IMG/VR virus record: IMGVR_UViG_3300027736_000099
Coordinates: 1-38,929 of that record
From: a virus
Direction: 5' to 3' (one strand)
Length of the DNA stretch: 38,929 bases
This document shows, piece after piece, positions 4,002-15,637 of the stretch. Position 1 is the first letter of the stretch. Every line of letters begins with the position of its first letter. The translations under genes and the position numbers were made by a program. Below the pieces are notes generated by a model. The model ran no database searches. It had not been told where the DNA came from and saw only the letters and a list, made by a program, of their open reading frames with translations.

Positions 4002-4282
4002 CACTCATCCCCCTTGTTAGGCTTCCAATCTGGAAGATTCAGCTCATCTCTTACAATTCCCGTAATGTAGCCAATTACCCACCATCGTCTTCCATTGTCC
4101 TGTTCAGCCATTAGATGCCATCTGTCACCATATGGGCCAATACTGAATTGATGGAAATTGTCATCGCCACCCCACCGTTTTACAAAATCAATGTTAAGCA
4201 ACTCCTCAAGAGTTTCGAAGTTTTTCGTCGCCGGATCGAATCCAGACACGAAGTTTGGTATATGTTGTTTGATCGTTCCCAT
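4001..4282 (-). CDS. Hypothetical protein in the terS-terL accessory cluster
   Basis: 93 residues, unknown family. A middle stretch FHQFSIGPYGDRWHLMAEQD and the following RRWWVIGYITG look like beta strands of a compact domain. The start ATG at 4282 is preceded by the same GGGGGATGAGTG junction that precedes the next gene's start. Upstream is a 42-residue membrane peptide gene whose stop lies three bases before this ATG. Confidence 0.6.
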   Translation of the reverse strand: MGTIKQHIPNFVSGFDPATKNFETLEELLNIDFVKRWGGDDNFHQFSIGPYGDRWHLMAEQDNGRRWWVIGYITGIVRDELNLPDWKPNKGDE

Positions 4283-4285
4283 CAC

Positions 4286-4414
4286 TCATCCCCCTTTGAA
4301 GATGTCACGCAGCGTCTGCCACATCATGTAAGTGAAAAGAATCACTGTTCCGCCTATCATGAACAGCGCCCAGATGATGAAGATCAGTTGGCCCAGCGTC
4401 TTAAGGTAATCCAT
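4286..4414 (-). CDS. 42-residue single-pass membrane peptide
   Basis: Very short gene starting MDYLKTLGQLIFIIWALFMI, continuing GGTVILFTYMMW and ending QTLRDIFKGG. One hydrophobic helix spans roughly residues 9-32, with positive residues at the C-terminal end. The ATG has a GGAGAAGAAAG ribosome site and overlaps the upstream gene's stop by 14 bases. Spacing, overlap and the clean membrane helix make it a credible gene. The function is unknown; small membrane peptides of this kind in phages include lysis modulators and superinfection-exclusion factors. Confidence 0.6.
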   Translation of the reverse strand: MDYLKTLGQLIFIIWALFMIGGTVILFTYMMWQTLRDIFKGG

Positions 4415-4634
4415 CTTTCTTCTCCATCCCAACAAGCGTTCTGGCAAAGTCTAAGCTTTTATTCACATATGGTTCACCGGCTGCTTTGGCTAATGTTTCA
4501 TTCACTTCTTCATTTCGGATCATAAACTTTAAAACATTTTCCAATTCTTTAACGCGAGACTTTAATTTTTCATTATCCTCTAACAAGCTCAGTACAATTT
4601 GTTCGTAGCGAATCATAATTTCAGATTGTTCCAT
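4401..4634 (-). CDS. Small coiled-coil hypothetical protein
   Basis: 77 residues. Residues 8-40 (EDNEKLKSRVKELENVLKFM) form a predicted coiled coil. The C-terminal segment LDFARTLVGMEKKDGLP ends with the same MEKKDG residues as the protein encoded upstream, because both 3' ends contain the same 18-base junction sequence. The ribosome site GGAGAAGAAAG lies inside that junction. No family recognised. Confidence 0.65.
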   Translation of the reverse strand: MEQSEIMIRYEQIVLSLLEDNEKLKSRVKELENVLKFMIRNEEVNETLAKAAGEPYVNKSLDFARTLVGMEKKDGLP

Positions 4635-5022
4635 CTTTCTTCTCCATCAGTTGCTTTAGCTTTGCTTTGTTCTCATCATCCAGATAGTAGCCCAGCCCGC
4701 GCCGGGTGCAGACTTCGATGCCATGCTCCCGCAGCTTCTTCTTCAACTTGTGCAGCGCCACCTTCACCCGGTGGCGGGCATAGTCATCGCCTTCGCCACG
4801 GTTGATGTGGCCGCTCCTAGAGCAGATCGCATCGAGGTAAGCGTAGGTGGCGAGGCGCTTGCTGTAGATGCCTAGCAGCAAGGCTGAATGCTGATAGGAG
4901 AACAGATGCAGGAACGGGTTGTTCACCGGCACGAGGTCTTCGCGAAGCTGGCGCAGTTCTTCCTCAAGCTTGCCAATGTACCTCGTCAATGAGGCGATGT
5001 GGATGTCAGCGGAGGTTGTCAT
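4621..5022 (-). CDS. Winged-helix DNA-binding protein (OmpR/PhoB-type)
   Basis: 133 residues. An N-terminal coiled coil (RYIGKLEEELRQLREDL, residues 14-30) is followed by a winged-helix domain at about 45-115. The segment VALHKLKKKLREHGIEVCTR plus RGLGYYLD matches the recognition helix and wing of OmpR/PhoB-type effector domains. There is no receiver domain, so it is a stand-alone DNA-binding protein, perhaps dimerised through the coiled coil. It overlaps its upstream neighbour as ATGA. It may regulate its own operon through the half-sites at 6021-6068, which is inference. Its C-terminal MEKKDGTI comes from a repeated junction sequence. Confidence 0.7.
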   Translation of the reverse strand: MTTSADIHIASLTRYIGKLEEELRQLREDLVPVNNPFLHLFSYQHSALLLGIYSKRLATYAYLDAICSRSGHINRGEGDDYARHRVKVALHKLKKKLREHGIEVCTRRGLGYYLDDENKAKLKQLMEKKDGTI

Positions 5023-9411: not shown

Positions 9412-9606
9412 ATGCAGATCAATCGGGTTTCCCCATCCATCCTTCAGGCGCTTGGCTCCAAGACGCAGCCTGTGCAGCGCCCGGCTCCCGTGCAGGGAAC
9501 GCCCCCGGTGATCCGGGAACGCTACTCCGAAGATCCTGCGGTTGCTGCCGCCATCGCTGAGATGAACGCCTACACCGGCATCGGCAAAAAGGCGAAGCGG
9601 TTCTGA
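9412..9606 (+). CDS. Lone plus-strand small protein, function unknown
   Basis: 64 residues starting MQINRVSPSILQALGSKTQP, then proline-rich, then YSEDPAVAAAIAEMNAYTGI and a basic end GKKAKRF. It is probably partly disordered and no family is recognised. The ATG at 9412 follows GGAGTCCGGC; a GTG at 9373 is in frame without a ribosome site. It is the only rightward gene in the left 14 kb, is divergent from the ParB-like gene, and overlaps the 3' end of the convergent DnaA-like gene by 37 bases. It could encode a small regulator or inhibitor; that is only a guess from its orientation. Confidence 0.55.
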   Translation: MQINRVSPSILQALGSKTQPVQRPAPVQGTPPVIRERYSEDPAVAAAIAEMNAYTGIGKKAKRF

Positions 9607-10109
9607 ACCTCTTCAATCAAACCTGCATTTACCCGCATCTTTTCTTGGTAGAGGTTTTGGAGCGTCTGGCTCAAAGCCTCATAGTCGGGATGATTCAAAC
9701 CCTTTTTCCGCCCATGTAAAACCGTGGTGTGATCCCGTCCGCCGGATGCCCGGCCGATCTGCGGCAAGCTCAAATGCGGGCAATGCCTGTATGCCAACGC
9801 CCACAACAATTGACGATCAAAGCAAAGCTTGTGGGTGCGCCGTTCCGCAAAGATCCCCCGGCGTTCATACCCCAGATGCTGGCACACGAGCGCAACAACC
9901 TCGTCAAAATTCACGCGAATGAAGTCTGGATGTACCGGCTGCACGGTCATGATGGCTATGGGTGCTTCGGTAGCAACCGGCTCCGGCTTTGGTTCTGGTT
10001 CAGGAGGAGGCAACATGACAACCGCCCTTACCGCAGGGCCATGCAGGCGGGCGCGAACAGTAGCGTAGTGAGCCATCAGGTCTTCGGCTGTGCTGAACTT
10101 AGCGATCAT
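9570..10109 (-). CDS. DnaA domain IV-like DNA-binding protein
   Basis: 179 residues. An acidic proline-rich linker (about 34-50, PPPEPEPKPEPV) separates a short helical N-terminus from a C-terminal domain. That domain has the DnaA box-binding signature: HLSLPQIGRASGGRDHTTVL then HGRKKG, with GGRDHTTV at 123-130. There is no AAA+ ATPase domain, so this is only the box-binding part of a DnaA-like initiator. It may recruit or compete with host DnaA. The ATG at 10109 has an AAAGGAGCAAACG site and overlaps the previous stop as ATGA; a longer start at 10145 is less likely. A perfect DnaA box lies at 13402-13410. Confidence 0.85.
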   Translation of the reverse strand: MIAKFSTAEDLMAHYATVRARLHGPAVRAVVMLPPPEPEPKPEPVATEAPIAIMTVQPVHPDFIRVNFDEVVALVCQHLGYERRGIFAERRTHKLCFDRQLLWALAYRHCPHLSLPQIGRASGGRDHTTVLHGRKKGLNHPDYEALSQTLQNLYQEKMRVNAGLIEEVQNRFAFLPMPV

Positions 10110-10270
10110 CGTTTGCTCCTTTGGTCGATGTCTTGTGAGCCCCAATTTTTGGAGTCGTTGAATGGATCAGGCAGGGCGGGCGTCAGCCAAGCTATGATTG
10201 CAGCGGCTAGCATCAATCCAACAGGGACAACACCAAATGCAATAAAGGCGATTAGAAGCTCTGTGGGCAT
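10106..10270 (-). CDS. 54-residue single-pass membrane protein
   Basis: It starts MPTELLIAFIAFGVVPVGLM and continues LAAAIIAWLTPALPDPF: one long hydrophobic helix at about residues 4-30, then a short polar tail (NDSKNWGSQDIDQRSKR). The ATG at 10270 lies four bases after the previous stop with an AGAGGA site. A longer frame from 10420 is in conflict with the upstream gene and lacks a ribosome site. Unknown function in the replication cluster. Confidence 0.6.
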   Translation of the reverse strand: MPTELLIAFIAFGVVPVGLMLAAAIIAWLTPALPDPFNDSKNWGSQDIDQRSKR

Positions 10271-10274
10271 GGTT

Positions 10275-10613
10275 CTAGTCCTCTCGGTACTGTCGGGGCG
10301 GCGCGGCTGGTTTTTCCTGCCTGCGGGCTCCGTAGCTCGTCCTAGGGGCATCGTGGGCGGGATGGTAGCTGAGATCAAACGTGCGGGGGTCTTCCGAGGG
10401 AACCGTGGCCGCTTTTCCAATGCCGCCCCAGATCGATTTGAACACCTTAGCGGTCTGATGTAGGCGCTGCTCTTCGAGGTAGTCCAGCCACATGGCGCGG
10501 GCCTTCATCTGACGGTCGAGATCTTCGGTGGGGTTTGACCAGATGATGAACGTCGCGTCGGGGGCCATCTTCATGTAGTTTTTGGCCTTGTCGTAAAATT
10601 TGCGGCTATCCAT
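10275..10613 (-). CDS. Hypothetical protein next to the replication initiator
   Basis: 112 residues. The N-terminal 65 residues look folded and helical (SRKFYDKAKNYMKMAPDATF; QMKARAMWLDYLEEQRLHQT). The C-terminal 45 are proline- and charge-rich and probably disordered. It overlaps the initiator gene's stop by eight bases and has a GGAGCGAAGCA site. The position is that of a lambda P-like helicase loader, but it is too short and no ATPase or loader motif is visible, so I leave the role open. Confidence 0.65.
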   Translation of the reverse strand: MDSRKFYDKAKNYMKMAPDATFIIWSNPTEDLDRQMKARAMWLDYLEEQRLHQTAKVFKSIWGGIGKAATVPSEDPRTFDLSYHPAHDAPRTSYGARRQEKPAAPPRQYRED

Positions 10614-11343
10614 TGCTTCGCTCCATCTTTTCTTTGTTTTTCCAGAACTCGTCGAACCGGCGGGCGGCTTCCCACTTCTCGTCTTCCGTCAGTTCACGCT
10701 TTTGGCCTTGGCCCTGCGCGAAGCTACCGGCGGGCTCATCGGCCCATCGGCCTTGGTTCAACCATGTGGCGGGGTGAACGGTGAATTGCTCATCCTGCCC
10801 GGCCCGGCTTGTGGCGTAGCGGCGGATGCCTTCCAGCAATTCGGAATCCGAGGTGGTCTTGCGAGCTTTCTCGTATGCTCGGCGGGCTGCTTCCTTCCCG
10901 ATCCTACGGGGACAGGCCAACCAAAACTTCTCAAATCCGACGATAGAATCTTTAGTGATAGGTTCTATGATAGGATTGGCGGCAGATTTTGCCGGTGGGT
11001 GCTGCAAATTTTGCCGGTGGGGGGCGGCAGAATCTGCCGGAGGGTATACCGTATCTTGCCGGTGGGGGGCGGCAAATTCTGCCGGTGGGTTCAGCGTGTA
11101 AGTTAGTTTTGTTCCAAAGGCATGCTTGGTCGTTTCAACTGTCAATAAACCATGCTCAACCAACCAGTTCGTCTTGTCGCGAACTGTGCGTTCACTCATG
11201 CCAGTATCAGCCATAAGCGTCTTCTGGCTCGGCCATGCCCGATAATCTTCATCGGCATAATTTGAAAGAATTAGCAGCAATAACCGGCAGCCGGAATCGC
11301 CAGCCTTTTGTTTGATAGCCCATGCCATAGCTTGGAAAGACAT
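10606..11343 (-). CDS. O-like replication initiation protein with an internal iteron array
   Basis: 245 residues. The N-terminal winged-helix (about 5-90) has a RAWPSQKTLMADTGMSERTV segment plus RDKTNWLVEHGLLTVE, typical of lambda O-like/HTH_36 replication proteins. A repeat-bearing linker at about 88-125 contains PPAEFAAPHRQ- and PPADSAAPHRQ-type 15-residue units. It is encoded by five spaced DNA iterons (see repeat feature). The C-terminal domain has FEKFWLACPRRIGKEAARRA, common in phage replication proteins that bind helicase loaders. The ATG at 11343 follows GAGGAGTCAACAG and was preferred to an upstream start at 11388. The layout of winged helix, iterons, AT-rich stretch and partner domain mirrors lambda O and ori. 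Confidence 0.8.
   Translation of the reverse strand: MSFQAMAWAIKQKAGDSGCRLLLLILSNYADEDYRAWPSQKTLMADTGMSERTVRDKTNWLVEHGLLTVETTKHAFGTKLTYTLNPPAEFAAPHRQDTVYPPADSAAPHRQNLQHPPAKSAANPIIEPITKDSIVGFEKFWLACPRRIGKEAARRAYEKARKTTSDSELLEGIRRYATSRAGQDEQFTVHPATWLNQGRWADEPAGSFAQGQGQKRELTEDEKWEAARRFDEFWKNKEKMERSNG
10920..11089. repeat. Iteron array and AT-rich stretch: probable replication origin
   Basis: Five copies of TGCCGGTGGG (one with TGCCGGAGGG) lie at 10990-10999, 11012-11021, 11035-11044, 11057-11066 and 11080-11089. They are spaced 22, 23, 22 and 23 bases, about two helical turns. Because 22 is not a multiple of three, the same decamer is read alternately as PPA and as PHRQ. Conservation is therefore at DNA level, not protein level. 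Next to them, 10920-10983 is AT-rich. In lambda, the origin likewise consists of iterons inside the O gene followed by an AT-rich stretch. Origin function is inferred from this organisation. Confidence 0.75.
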
Positions 11344-11360
11344 CTGTTGACTCCTCATAT

Positions 11361-11403
11361 CTTGTGCGTTGCACGAGGAGCCAGCCACATGATATAGATG
11401 TGG
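11361..11403. promoter_or_regulatory. Two dyads upstream of the replication initiator
   Basis: CCACAT-gatatag-ATGTGG at 11385-11403 is a perfect six-base inverted repeat of operator size. CTTGTGC-gtt-GCACGAG at 11361-11377 is a second, near-perfect dyad closer to the ribosome site. Both lie in the 142-base gap between the HTH gene and the initiator gene. No clear -35/-10 pair was found there. Confidence 0.4.
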
Positions 11404-11440: not shown

Positions 11441-11474
11441 TGAGGCCCGCTGGCTGCAACCCCGGCGGGCCTCA
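11441..11474. terminator. GC-rich hairpin after the small HTH gene
   Basis: TGAGGCCCGC pairs perfectly with GCGGGCCTCA (10 base pairs, 14-base loop). It begins 12 bases past the stop of the minus-strand HTH gene. The T-rich side (AATCTTTTC) follows on the plus strand, so as an intrinsic terminator it would act better on rightward transcripts. It may still attenuate leftward transcription into the initiator gene. Confidence 0.45.
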
Positions 11475-13389: not shown

Positions 13390-13420
13390 ATTATTTTAGC
13401 CTGTGGATAACTTTATTTGG
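13390..13420. promoter_or_regulatory. Perfect DnaA box in an AT-rich gap
   Basis: TTATCCACA on the minus strand at 13402-13410 is an exact match to the strong DnaA box consensus TTATNCACA. It is flanked by AT-rich sequence (AATTATTTTAG and CTTTATTTGG). It lies between the GapR-like gene's stop and promoter module B. The phage encodes a DnaA domain IV-like protein at 9570-10109 that could bind it. Confidence 0.55.
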
Positions 13421-14492: not shown

Positions 14493-14981
14493 ATGAAACC
14501 AAATATTGAACAGCTTAAGATACAGATCAGCTTGCTACTAGATCGGCACCCTGAACTGGTGGATGATGTCGATCTACGGGCCGACATGCTTGAAGGCAGC
14601 ACCGATCTCTATGCCATCATGGAGCGTTTGCTGAACGAAGAGCGCGAAGCCAATGAGCTTATCGCTGTGGTAGGCAACCGCATCGAAAACTTGTCTGCCC
14701 GGCGCGCTATGTTTCGCTTAAGGCAGACCTCCCTGCGCGCAGTCATGCAAGCAATTCTTGATCGTGCGGAGCTACGCAAGATTGCGTTGCCAGAGGCAAC
14801 CATCAGCATCACACGCCGAGGGCCTGCGGTGCAGATCATTGACGAGACGCTTGTTCCTGACGCTCTCTGTCGATTTAAGCGCGAGGTTTCTAAAACAGCA
14901 GTCAAAGAAGCAATCAACGCTGGTGAAGAGGTGCCCGGAGCGGTCCTCGATAATGGCAGCGAAACCTTGAGGATCGGCTAA
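14493..14981 (+). CDS. Gp157-like siphovirus family protein
   Basis: 162 residues. It is helical in the first 90 (NIEQLKIQISLLLDRHPELV; REANELIAVVGNRIENLSAR), then RAVMQAILDRAELRKIALPE followed by ATISITRRGPAVQIIDETLV. This is the plan of Gp157-type proteins, which in Streptococcus thermophilus phages were linked to resistance against phage infection, and which commonly sit next to single-strand annealing proteins. It is the first gene of the rightward operon, with GAGGACAAC before the ATG. The stop shares bases with the Rad52-like gene start (TAATG). Confidence 0.8.
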   Translation: MKPNIEQLKIQISLLLDRHPELVDDVDLRADMLEGSTDLYAIMERLLNEEREANELIAVVGNRIENLSARRAMFRLRQTSLRAVMQAILDRAELRKIALPEATISITRRGPAVQIIDETLVPDALCRFKREVSKTAVKEAINAGEEVPGAVLDNGSETLRIG

Positions 14982-15637
14982 TGTTTTCGACTCAAATAAA
15001 CGGTGCGCTATCAGCGCCATTAGATCGTGCGTTCGTGAAAGAGCGCGAGCAGTCGGGTAGACGGTTCTCCTACATCGAGGGATGGCATGCAATCGCTGAA
15101 GCAAACCGCATCTTCGGCTTTGATGGCTGGCACCGAGAGACTGTCGAGGTTCGCCTTGTCAACGAAAGACCACGCAAGATCGGTCGTGATGGTCGTGAAG
15201 GGTGGGCTGTTAGTTACATCGTGCGTGTTCGCATTATTGTTATGGATACTATACGCGATGGTATGGGAAGCGGGCATGGCATTGATGTCGATCTCGGCCT
15301 CGCGCATGAGTCAGCTATTAAAGAAGCTGAGACTGACGCGATGAAGCGGGCGCTGATGACCTTCGGGAATCCATTCGGGCTCGCGCTCTACGACAAGGAA
15401 CAGCGTCAGGTTGTTGAGGCCCAGCCCGAAAAGCTTCAGCCTACAGACCTGAACGCTATGATTGAAGAGGTCTTACGCATGAAGACCACTACCGCCCTGC
15501 GCAAGTGGTGGAAGCAGACCGCCGACTTCCGCAACAGCGTTGGCCTTGTGGATGGCACTGAGGAATATCAGTTGCTCTACACCACCTTTGTAACTCACGG
15601 GAAAAAACTTGCAGCAGGAGAAACCGTCAATGGCTAA
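14981..15637 (+). CDS. Rad52-type single-strand annealing protein
   Basis: 218 residues. The core YIEGWHAIAEANRIFGFDGW is followed by a GREGWAVSYIVRVRI strand, then GLAHESAIKEAETDAMKRAL and MTFGNPFGLALYDK. This order matches the N-terminal annealing domain of Rad52/Rad22-type phage recombinases (Sak-like group). It would anneal complementary single strands and promote homologous recombination and concatemer formation. The C-terminal 70 residues are helical and less conserved. It is coupled to Gp157 upstream and to the SSB-like gene downstream, as in other phage recombination operons. Confidence 0.88.
   Translation: MFSTQINGALSAPLDRAFVKEREQSGRRFSYIEGWHAIAEANRIFGFDGWHRETVEVRLVNERPRKIGRDGREGWAVSYIVRVRIIVMDTIRDGMGSGHGIDVDLGLAHESAIKEAETDAMKRALMTFGNPFGLALYDKEQRQVVEAQPEKLQPTDLNAMIEEVLRMKTTTALRKWWKQTADFRNSVGLVDGTEEYQLLYTTFVTHGKKLAAGETVNG

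Follow-up and report, generated by a model that had tools for sequence, protein, structure and literature searches.

A probable replication origin of inverted-repeat iterons and a repeat-bearing AT-rich stretch inside an O-like phage initiator gene

Introduction

Most phage origins are unmapped. In one virus (IMG/VR record IMGVR_UViG_3300027736_000099; the window, meaning the whole record of 38,929 bases), an O-like initiator gene carries an array of short repeats directly 3′ of its winged-helix (wH) coding region, followed by an AT-rich stretch. Is this array part of a replication origin, with the repeats selected as DNA, or does it serve the initiator protein, its regulation or some other process? 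We approached the question through the anatomy of the array, the relatives of the gene and the AT-rich stretch, whose coordinates are collected in Table 1.

Table 1. Coordinates of the initiator gene, its domains and the repeats within it.
Feature	Position	Strand	Remark
O-like replication initiator gene (P0001)	10606..11343	-	245 aa from ATG 11343
Winged-helix (wH) DNA-binding domain	11090..11320	-	about residues 23-100 of P0001
Iteron 1, CCCACCGGCAGAATTTGCCGCC	11068..11089	-	
Iteron 2, CCCACCGGCAAGATACGGTATA	11045..11066	-	3′ arm degenerate
Iteron 3, CCCTCCGGCAGATTCTGCCGCC	11023..11044	-	
Iteron 4, CCCACCGGCAAAATTTGCAGCA	11000..11021	-	
Iteron 5, CCCACCGGCAAAATCTGCCGCC	10978..10999	-	
AT-rich stretch, putative DNA unwinding element (DUE)	~10915-10977	-	3′ of array; the part with the three repeats is 10940..10977
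C-terminal helical 'FEKFW...HPATWLNQGRW' domain, putative replisome-recruiting module	10753..10953	-	pLDDT mostly >90 and PHROG matches
Cassette (wH and iterons, ~340 bp) swapped as a unit in L002	10977..11316	-	DNA alignment; approximate boundaries

Results

Five iterons in alternating reading frames

The array consists of five near-identical 22-nt units with the gene-strand sequence CCCACCGGCAnAatcTGCCGcC. A sequence-only reading of the window had described five decamers recurring every 22 or 23 bases. The spacing is as it said, 22/23/22/23 along the + strand (23/22/23/22 in the direction of the gene), but only four copies of the decamer TGCCGGTGGG are exact (+ strand, 10990, 11012, 11057 and 11080), and the fifth, at 11035, is TGCCGGAGGG with one mismatch. 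The same reading had placed the whole feature at 10920-11093, a span that divides into the iterons proper at 10978-11089 and the AT-rich stretch, which lies 3′ of them on the minus gene strand. The unit is longer than the decamer and contains an inverted repeat, CGGCA-N5-TGCCG, that is degenerate in units 2 and 4 of the five. When CGGCAN5TGCCGG was searched with at most one mismatch, seven of its eight matches in the window fell inside the array.

The units start at gene positions 299, 322, 344, 367 and 389, in frames 2/1/2/1/2, and the decamer copies encode PPA, PHRQ, PPA, PHRQ and PPA. The frames alternate in all five copies, as expected of a spacing that is not a multiple of three and as had been noticed from the letters. 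The array scores 33, compared with a maximum of 21 in synonymous-codon shuffles that kept the protein fixed, and its score was reached in none of 600. Also borne out is the AT-rich stretch behind the iterons: the 60 nt 3′ of the array are 65% AT, compared with 46% for the gene.

No DnaA box TTATNCACA was found in the origin region, the nearest exact box being at 13402, so dependence on DnaA is without support; a search for a recognised promoter there also found none. Just upstream of the initiator start is a palindrome, CCACATGATATAGATGTGG (11385-11403), a candidate operator within a stretch about 98% identical to the relative L002. A terminator-like hairpin of 13 pairs lies between the initiator and the upstream gene (11441-11474); such sites are no commoner here than in shuffles.

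An initiator with two confident domains and a flexible linker

The reading frame of the initiator (10606-11388, minus strand) is open to a GTG at 11388, from which it would encode 260 aa, but homology and the position of the Shine-Dalgarno sequence make the ATG at 11343 (MSFQAMAWA) the more likely start; the homologue P0002 also has the N-terminus MSFQAMAWA. The protein matches phrog_270, annotated 'replication initiation protein', at 2e-42 over residues 11-239, which covers both the wH and the C-terminus, and Pfam HTH_36 matches residues 35-82 (3e-11). In the AlphaFold2 model two parts are predicted with confidence, the wH (residues 20-100, pLDDT about 94-98) and a helical C-terminal domain, and the linker between them at residues 113-143 has low confidence. 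The residues encoded by the iterons, about 100-137, overlap this predicted disordered linker; the array codes for a flexible region directly behind the wH. The C-terminal domain matches phrog_9327 ('primosomal', 1e-16) and phrog_9474 (6e-15). With the initiator as query, a sequence search of solved structures gave no usable match and a search of genome contigs no relative, while Foldseek returned generic wH folds only, none at E <0.001; its weak structural matches include 4pql and 5kbj (a Rep-DNA complex).

Arrays at the same site across the wH initiator family

We collected IMG/VR loci in two ways, with the C-terminal domain and with the winged helix, and called an array where at least three copies scored above synonymous shuffles. 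On this criterion, an array is found at the same site in 26-27 of 53 dereplicated wH genes, the count shifting by one between random shuffle sets, compared with 1 of 88 ORF segments of these loci that served as controls (Fisher p 3e-13). Some of the roughly half of wH genes that have no array by this criterion may have sites elsewhere or more diverged iterons. Most arrays begin no more than tens of nt from where the wH ends (gene positions about 245-340), with spacing modes of 22 and 23 nt, and the inverted repeats are significant in 18 of 36. Multiple frames are used in 24 of 27 family arrays. Among genes with the same C-terminal domain and another N-terminus, 5 of 25 pass the array criterion and 1 of 25 is multi-frame; for multi-frame arrays, the comparison of this 1/25 with 24/53 wH genes gives p 2e-4.

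Among known phages of this wH group, an unannotated array occupies the corresponding site in each of JBD68, Bcep176, EBPR podovirus 2, Kepler, Mcat8, BDU-MI-1 and PMBT6, and that of Acinetobacter AB1 is borderline. As a positive control, the scan recovered the annotated lambda iterons (spacing 20/24/23) as well as the P22 array; the phi80 array, where gp15 sites are annotated, merely tied its shuffle maximum. Moraxella phage Mcat8 (L174, 2001-3119) has eight iterons as a repeated block, with spacing 22,41,21,22,41,21,22, suggesting a recent expansion of the origin.

Iterons change with the winged helix

The closest relative of the window, L002, is 88% identical in the C-terminus and 38% in the wH, with iteron similarity at background. 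Over the exchanged segment (Table 1), the two are about 35-60% identical per 60-column block; upstream of it identity is about 95-98%, and downstream it is essentially 100% in the AT-rich stretch and then about 78-92%. L002 carries a different wH and its own iterons, TATACCGAGAGCCGGTA, in the same inverted-repeat layout with a spacing of 20/22/22. The sequence-only reading had named absence of the decamers from close relatives that keep the gene as evidence against an origin; they are indeed missing from L002, but the wH was swapped along with them and a different array stands in their place. In L155/L153 the wH is 93% and the C-terminus 42% identical, in L142/L151 the values are 86% and 2%, and in both the iterons are 16/16. 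The iteron DNA is far better conserved there (alignments judged by eye) than the third codon positions of residues shared by the two wHs, which are 0.58 and 0.51 identical. The comparison of relatives that had been proposed thus finds the iterons kept as DNA where wH third positions vary and, with the multi-frame arrays of the family, agrees with the earlier claim of selection on DNA.

From these alignments, we conclude that iteron sequence changes with the wH and independently of the C-terminus. Physical linkage alone could carry iterons along with the adjacent wH, so this co-inheritance supports binding of the one by the other without proving it. A further relative, L085 (IMGVR_UViG_3300043410_001535), has 83% identity in the ParB-like gene and a different, apparently non-wH initiator N-terminus; here the whole system for starting replication seems to have been exchanged.

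A conserved repeat in the AT-rich stretch

The putative DUE of the window holds three (A/G)A(A/T)(C/T)CTATC repeats, with gene-strand starts at 10977, 10965 and 10950. Their spacing of 12 and 15 puts all three in one frame, so the case for them as DNA comes from relatives. The 60 nt behind the last iteron exceed the gene average in AT content in 26 of 27 genes (mean 62% vs 51%, p 4e-8), and in this stretch a second repeat, (G)AACC[A/T][A/T]TCA, is conserved among genes that differ in iteron type, C-terminus and host phylum. In the first 70 nt behind the iterons, GAACC is enriched 15-fold and AACCTATC about 258-fold (15 occurrences vs 0 elsewhere in the same genes). DUE repeats that pass p<0.1 have a period of 9-15 nt and fall in more than one frame in 15 of 19 such arrays.

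When the viral collection was scanned with AACCTATCAN{2,5}AACCTATCA, 105 places were found, 76 of them distinct, and 56 of the 76 have a wH initiator domain encoded 50-220 nt upstream in the same orientation. A scan with GAACCATCAN{1,4}GAACCATCA gave at least 113 distinct places; among the matches listed, 89 have a wH and 85 of 113 distinct ones have an array just upstream. A permuted motif, a small control, gave 8 places, 6 of them distinct and none of the 6 near a wH. A motif placed at random in phage genomes would seldom fall within about 200 nt behind one particular gene.

The GAACC/AACCTATC motif is absent from lambda, phi80, P22, PAJU2 and PSA04, whereas AACC repeats are present in Pseudomonas JBD68 and in the enterobacterial HTH_36-group phages Pavtok, Parlo and LASTA, weaker in PPompW and altered in Morganella IME1369_02. 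This distribution suggests that the repeat is read by the initiator family and not by the host. We found no description of this DUE repeat in a search that covered open-licence papers only, so that one may have been missed. We consider it an even proposition that the wH initiators of phages have in common an intragenic origin of two parts, in which hypervariable iterons give specificity and the conserved (G)AACC[AT][AT]TCA is read as single-stranded DNA by the initiator family.

Discussion

The array and AT-rich stretch very probably form a phage replication origin inside the initiator gene, similar to lambda ori. In the mechanism we propose, the N-terminal wH, probably as a dimer, would bind each inverted-repeat iteron, and dimers on the five iterons would form an O-some-like complex that wraps or bends the DNA. 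The bound array would destabilise the adjoining AT-rich stretch, which would open much as the AT-rich stretch beside the iterons of lambda ori does (PMC7466680, PMC5043065). The opened AACC strand, with its (G)AACC[AT][AT]TCA repeats, may then be held single-stranded by the initiator complex, by analogy with TrfA and RepE (PMC4081077), while the FEKFW domain would recruit the helicase of the host or its loader, on the model of lambda O-P and of the C-terminus of the pSK41 initiator (PMC5703833). Since nothing but the flexible linker between the domains is encoded by the iterons, their DNA can evolve freely as binding sites, and wH and iterons could be exchanged as one specificity cassette.

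Other roles for the repeats have to be weighed against this origin. Iteron initiators often self-regulate, and inverted-repeat sites beside an HTH domain are also compatible with operators through which the initiator controls its own gene. We regard operators in place of an origin as very improbable: the sites are some 250-370 nt into the gene and are usually followed by an AT-rich, repeat-bearing stretch, their spacing resembles that of lambda and phi80, and no promoter-like site was found nearby. A centromere-like partition site, or a packaging site, would fit the ParB-like gene and the MT-A70 protein with a weak ParB_N match that are found nearby, yet the iterons change with the initiator wH and not with neighbour genes; the ParB-like gene of L002 is 79% identical although its iterons are different, and we give this role hardly any weight. 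The amino acids of the linker do repeat within each frame, and one could suppose that the PPA and PHRQ peptides are the selected trait and the DNA repeats a by-product. We hold this to be extremely unlikely, since the peptides differ between the alternating frames, the array is lost on synonymous shuffling, 24 of 27 family arrays share this multi-frame character and the linker is predicted to be disordered.

Two genes downstream of the initiator (9570-10145, minus strand) is a 191-aa protein with only the C-terminal DNA-binding domain of DnaA (Bac_DnaA_C, 5e-15), a possible helper or decoy for DnaA boxes; L002 encodes a similar protein at 4150-4770. A Rad52-family annealing protein (3e-38) is encoded at 14981-15637 (+), on the strand opposite the replication genes, with Sipho_Gp157 and RusA nearby.

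If the origin is as we propose, a short DNA signature and its adjacent gene would predict the origin of many phages whose hosts belong to several bacterial phyla. The layout, in which fast-changing binding sites precede a conserved sequence for opening, recurs in many unrelated phages and seems to be an origin. Since the binding sites of an initiator lie within its own gene, every winged helix is paired with its probable target and a recognition code could become readable from sequence. How the strands are opened is still poorly understood, and the conserved DUE repeat is a concrete candidate for this step.

Comparison with known systems

The origins of RK2 (TrfA) and F (RepE) resemble that of the window in having iterons beside an AT-rich DUE with short direct repeats, but they have another initiator family and other DUE repeat sequences, and they lie outside the gene. 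The RepA_N plasmids such as pSK41 share with the window an N-terminal wH and sites central in the initiator gene, a likeness to which the weak structural matches 4pql and 5kbj belong. They differ in being plasmids with an unrelated C-terminus and no sequence match, and the initiator of the window has no Pfam match to the RepA_N domain PF06970. In TrfA and RepE, the initiator binds the 13-mers or 8-mers of the DUE as one single strand (PMC4081077); in the pSK41 type, the wH binds Rep boxes central in the rep gene, the linker that the ori encodes in the middle of the protein is dispensable and the C-terminal domain recruits host DnaG (PMC5703833).

The nearest arrangement is that of lambda O/ori, phi80 gene 15 and P22 gene 18, where, as in the window, a wH initiator has about four mid-gene inverted-repeat iterons at 20-24-nt spacing, an AT-rich stretch lies 3′ of them and a separate C-terminal domain serves interaction (PMC7466680). 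The lambda layout noticed from the sequence stands as an arrangement, with the FEKFW domain in place of the P-binding domain, but this domain is of other families (phrog_9327/9474, compared with phrog_2357/391 for the lambda C-terminus), so it is not a homologue of the P-binding domain by this measure. Beside the initiator we saw a gene for a 112-aa protein of unknown function and none resembling lambda P. N-terminal homology to lambda O is through shared families only, the 'replication initiation O-like' phrog_678 (1e-10; lambda 2e-35) and phrog_345 (1e-9; lambda 5e-17). The iterons themselves differ between the window and lambda, phi80 and P22, and the window-type DUE has (G)AACC[AT][AT]TCA repeats where lambda and P22 have a ACAAAAGACA-type stretch instead. 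The initiators of PHROG 270 and 1032 (such as those of JBD68, Bcep176, Kepler and PMBT6) belong to the same wH family as that of the window, each lineage with an iteron sequence of its own.
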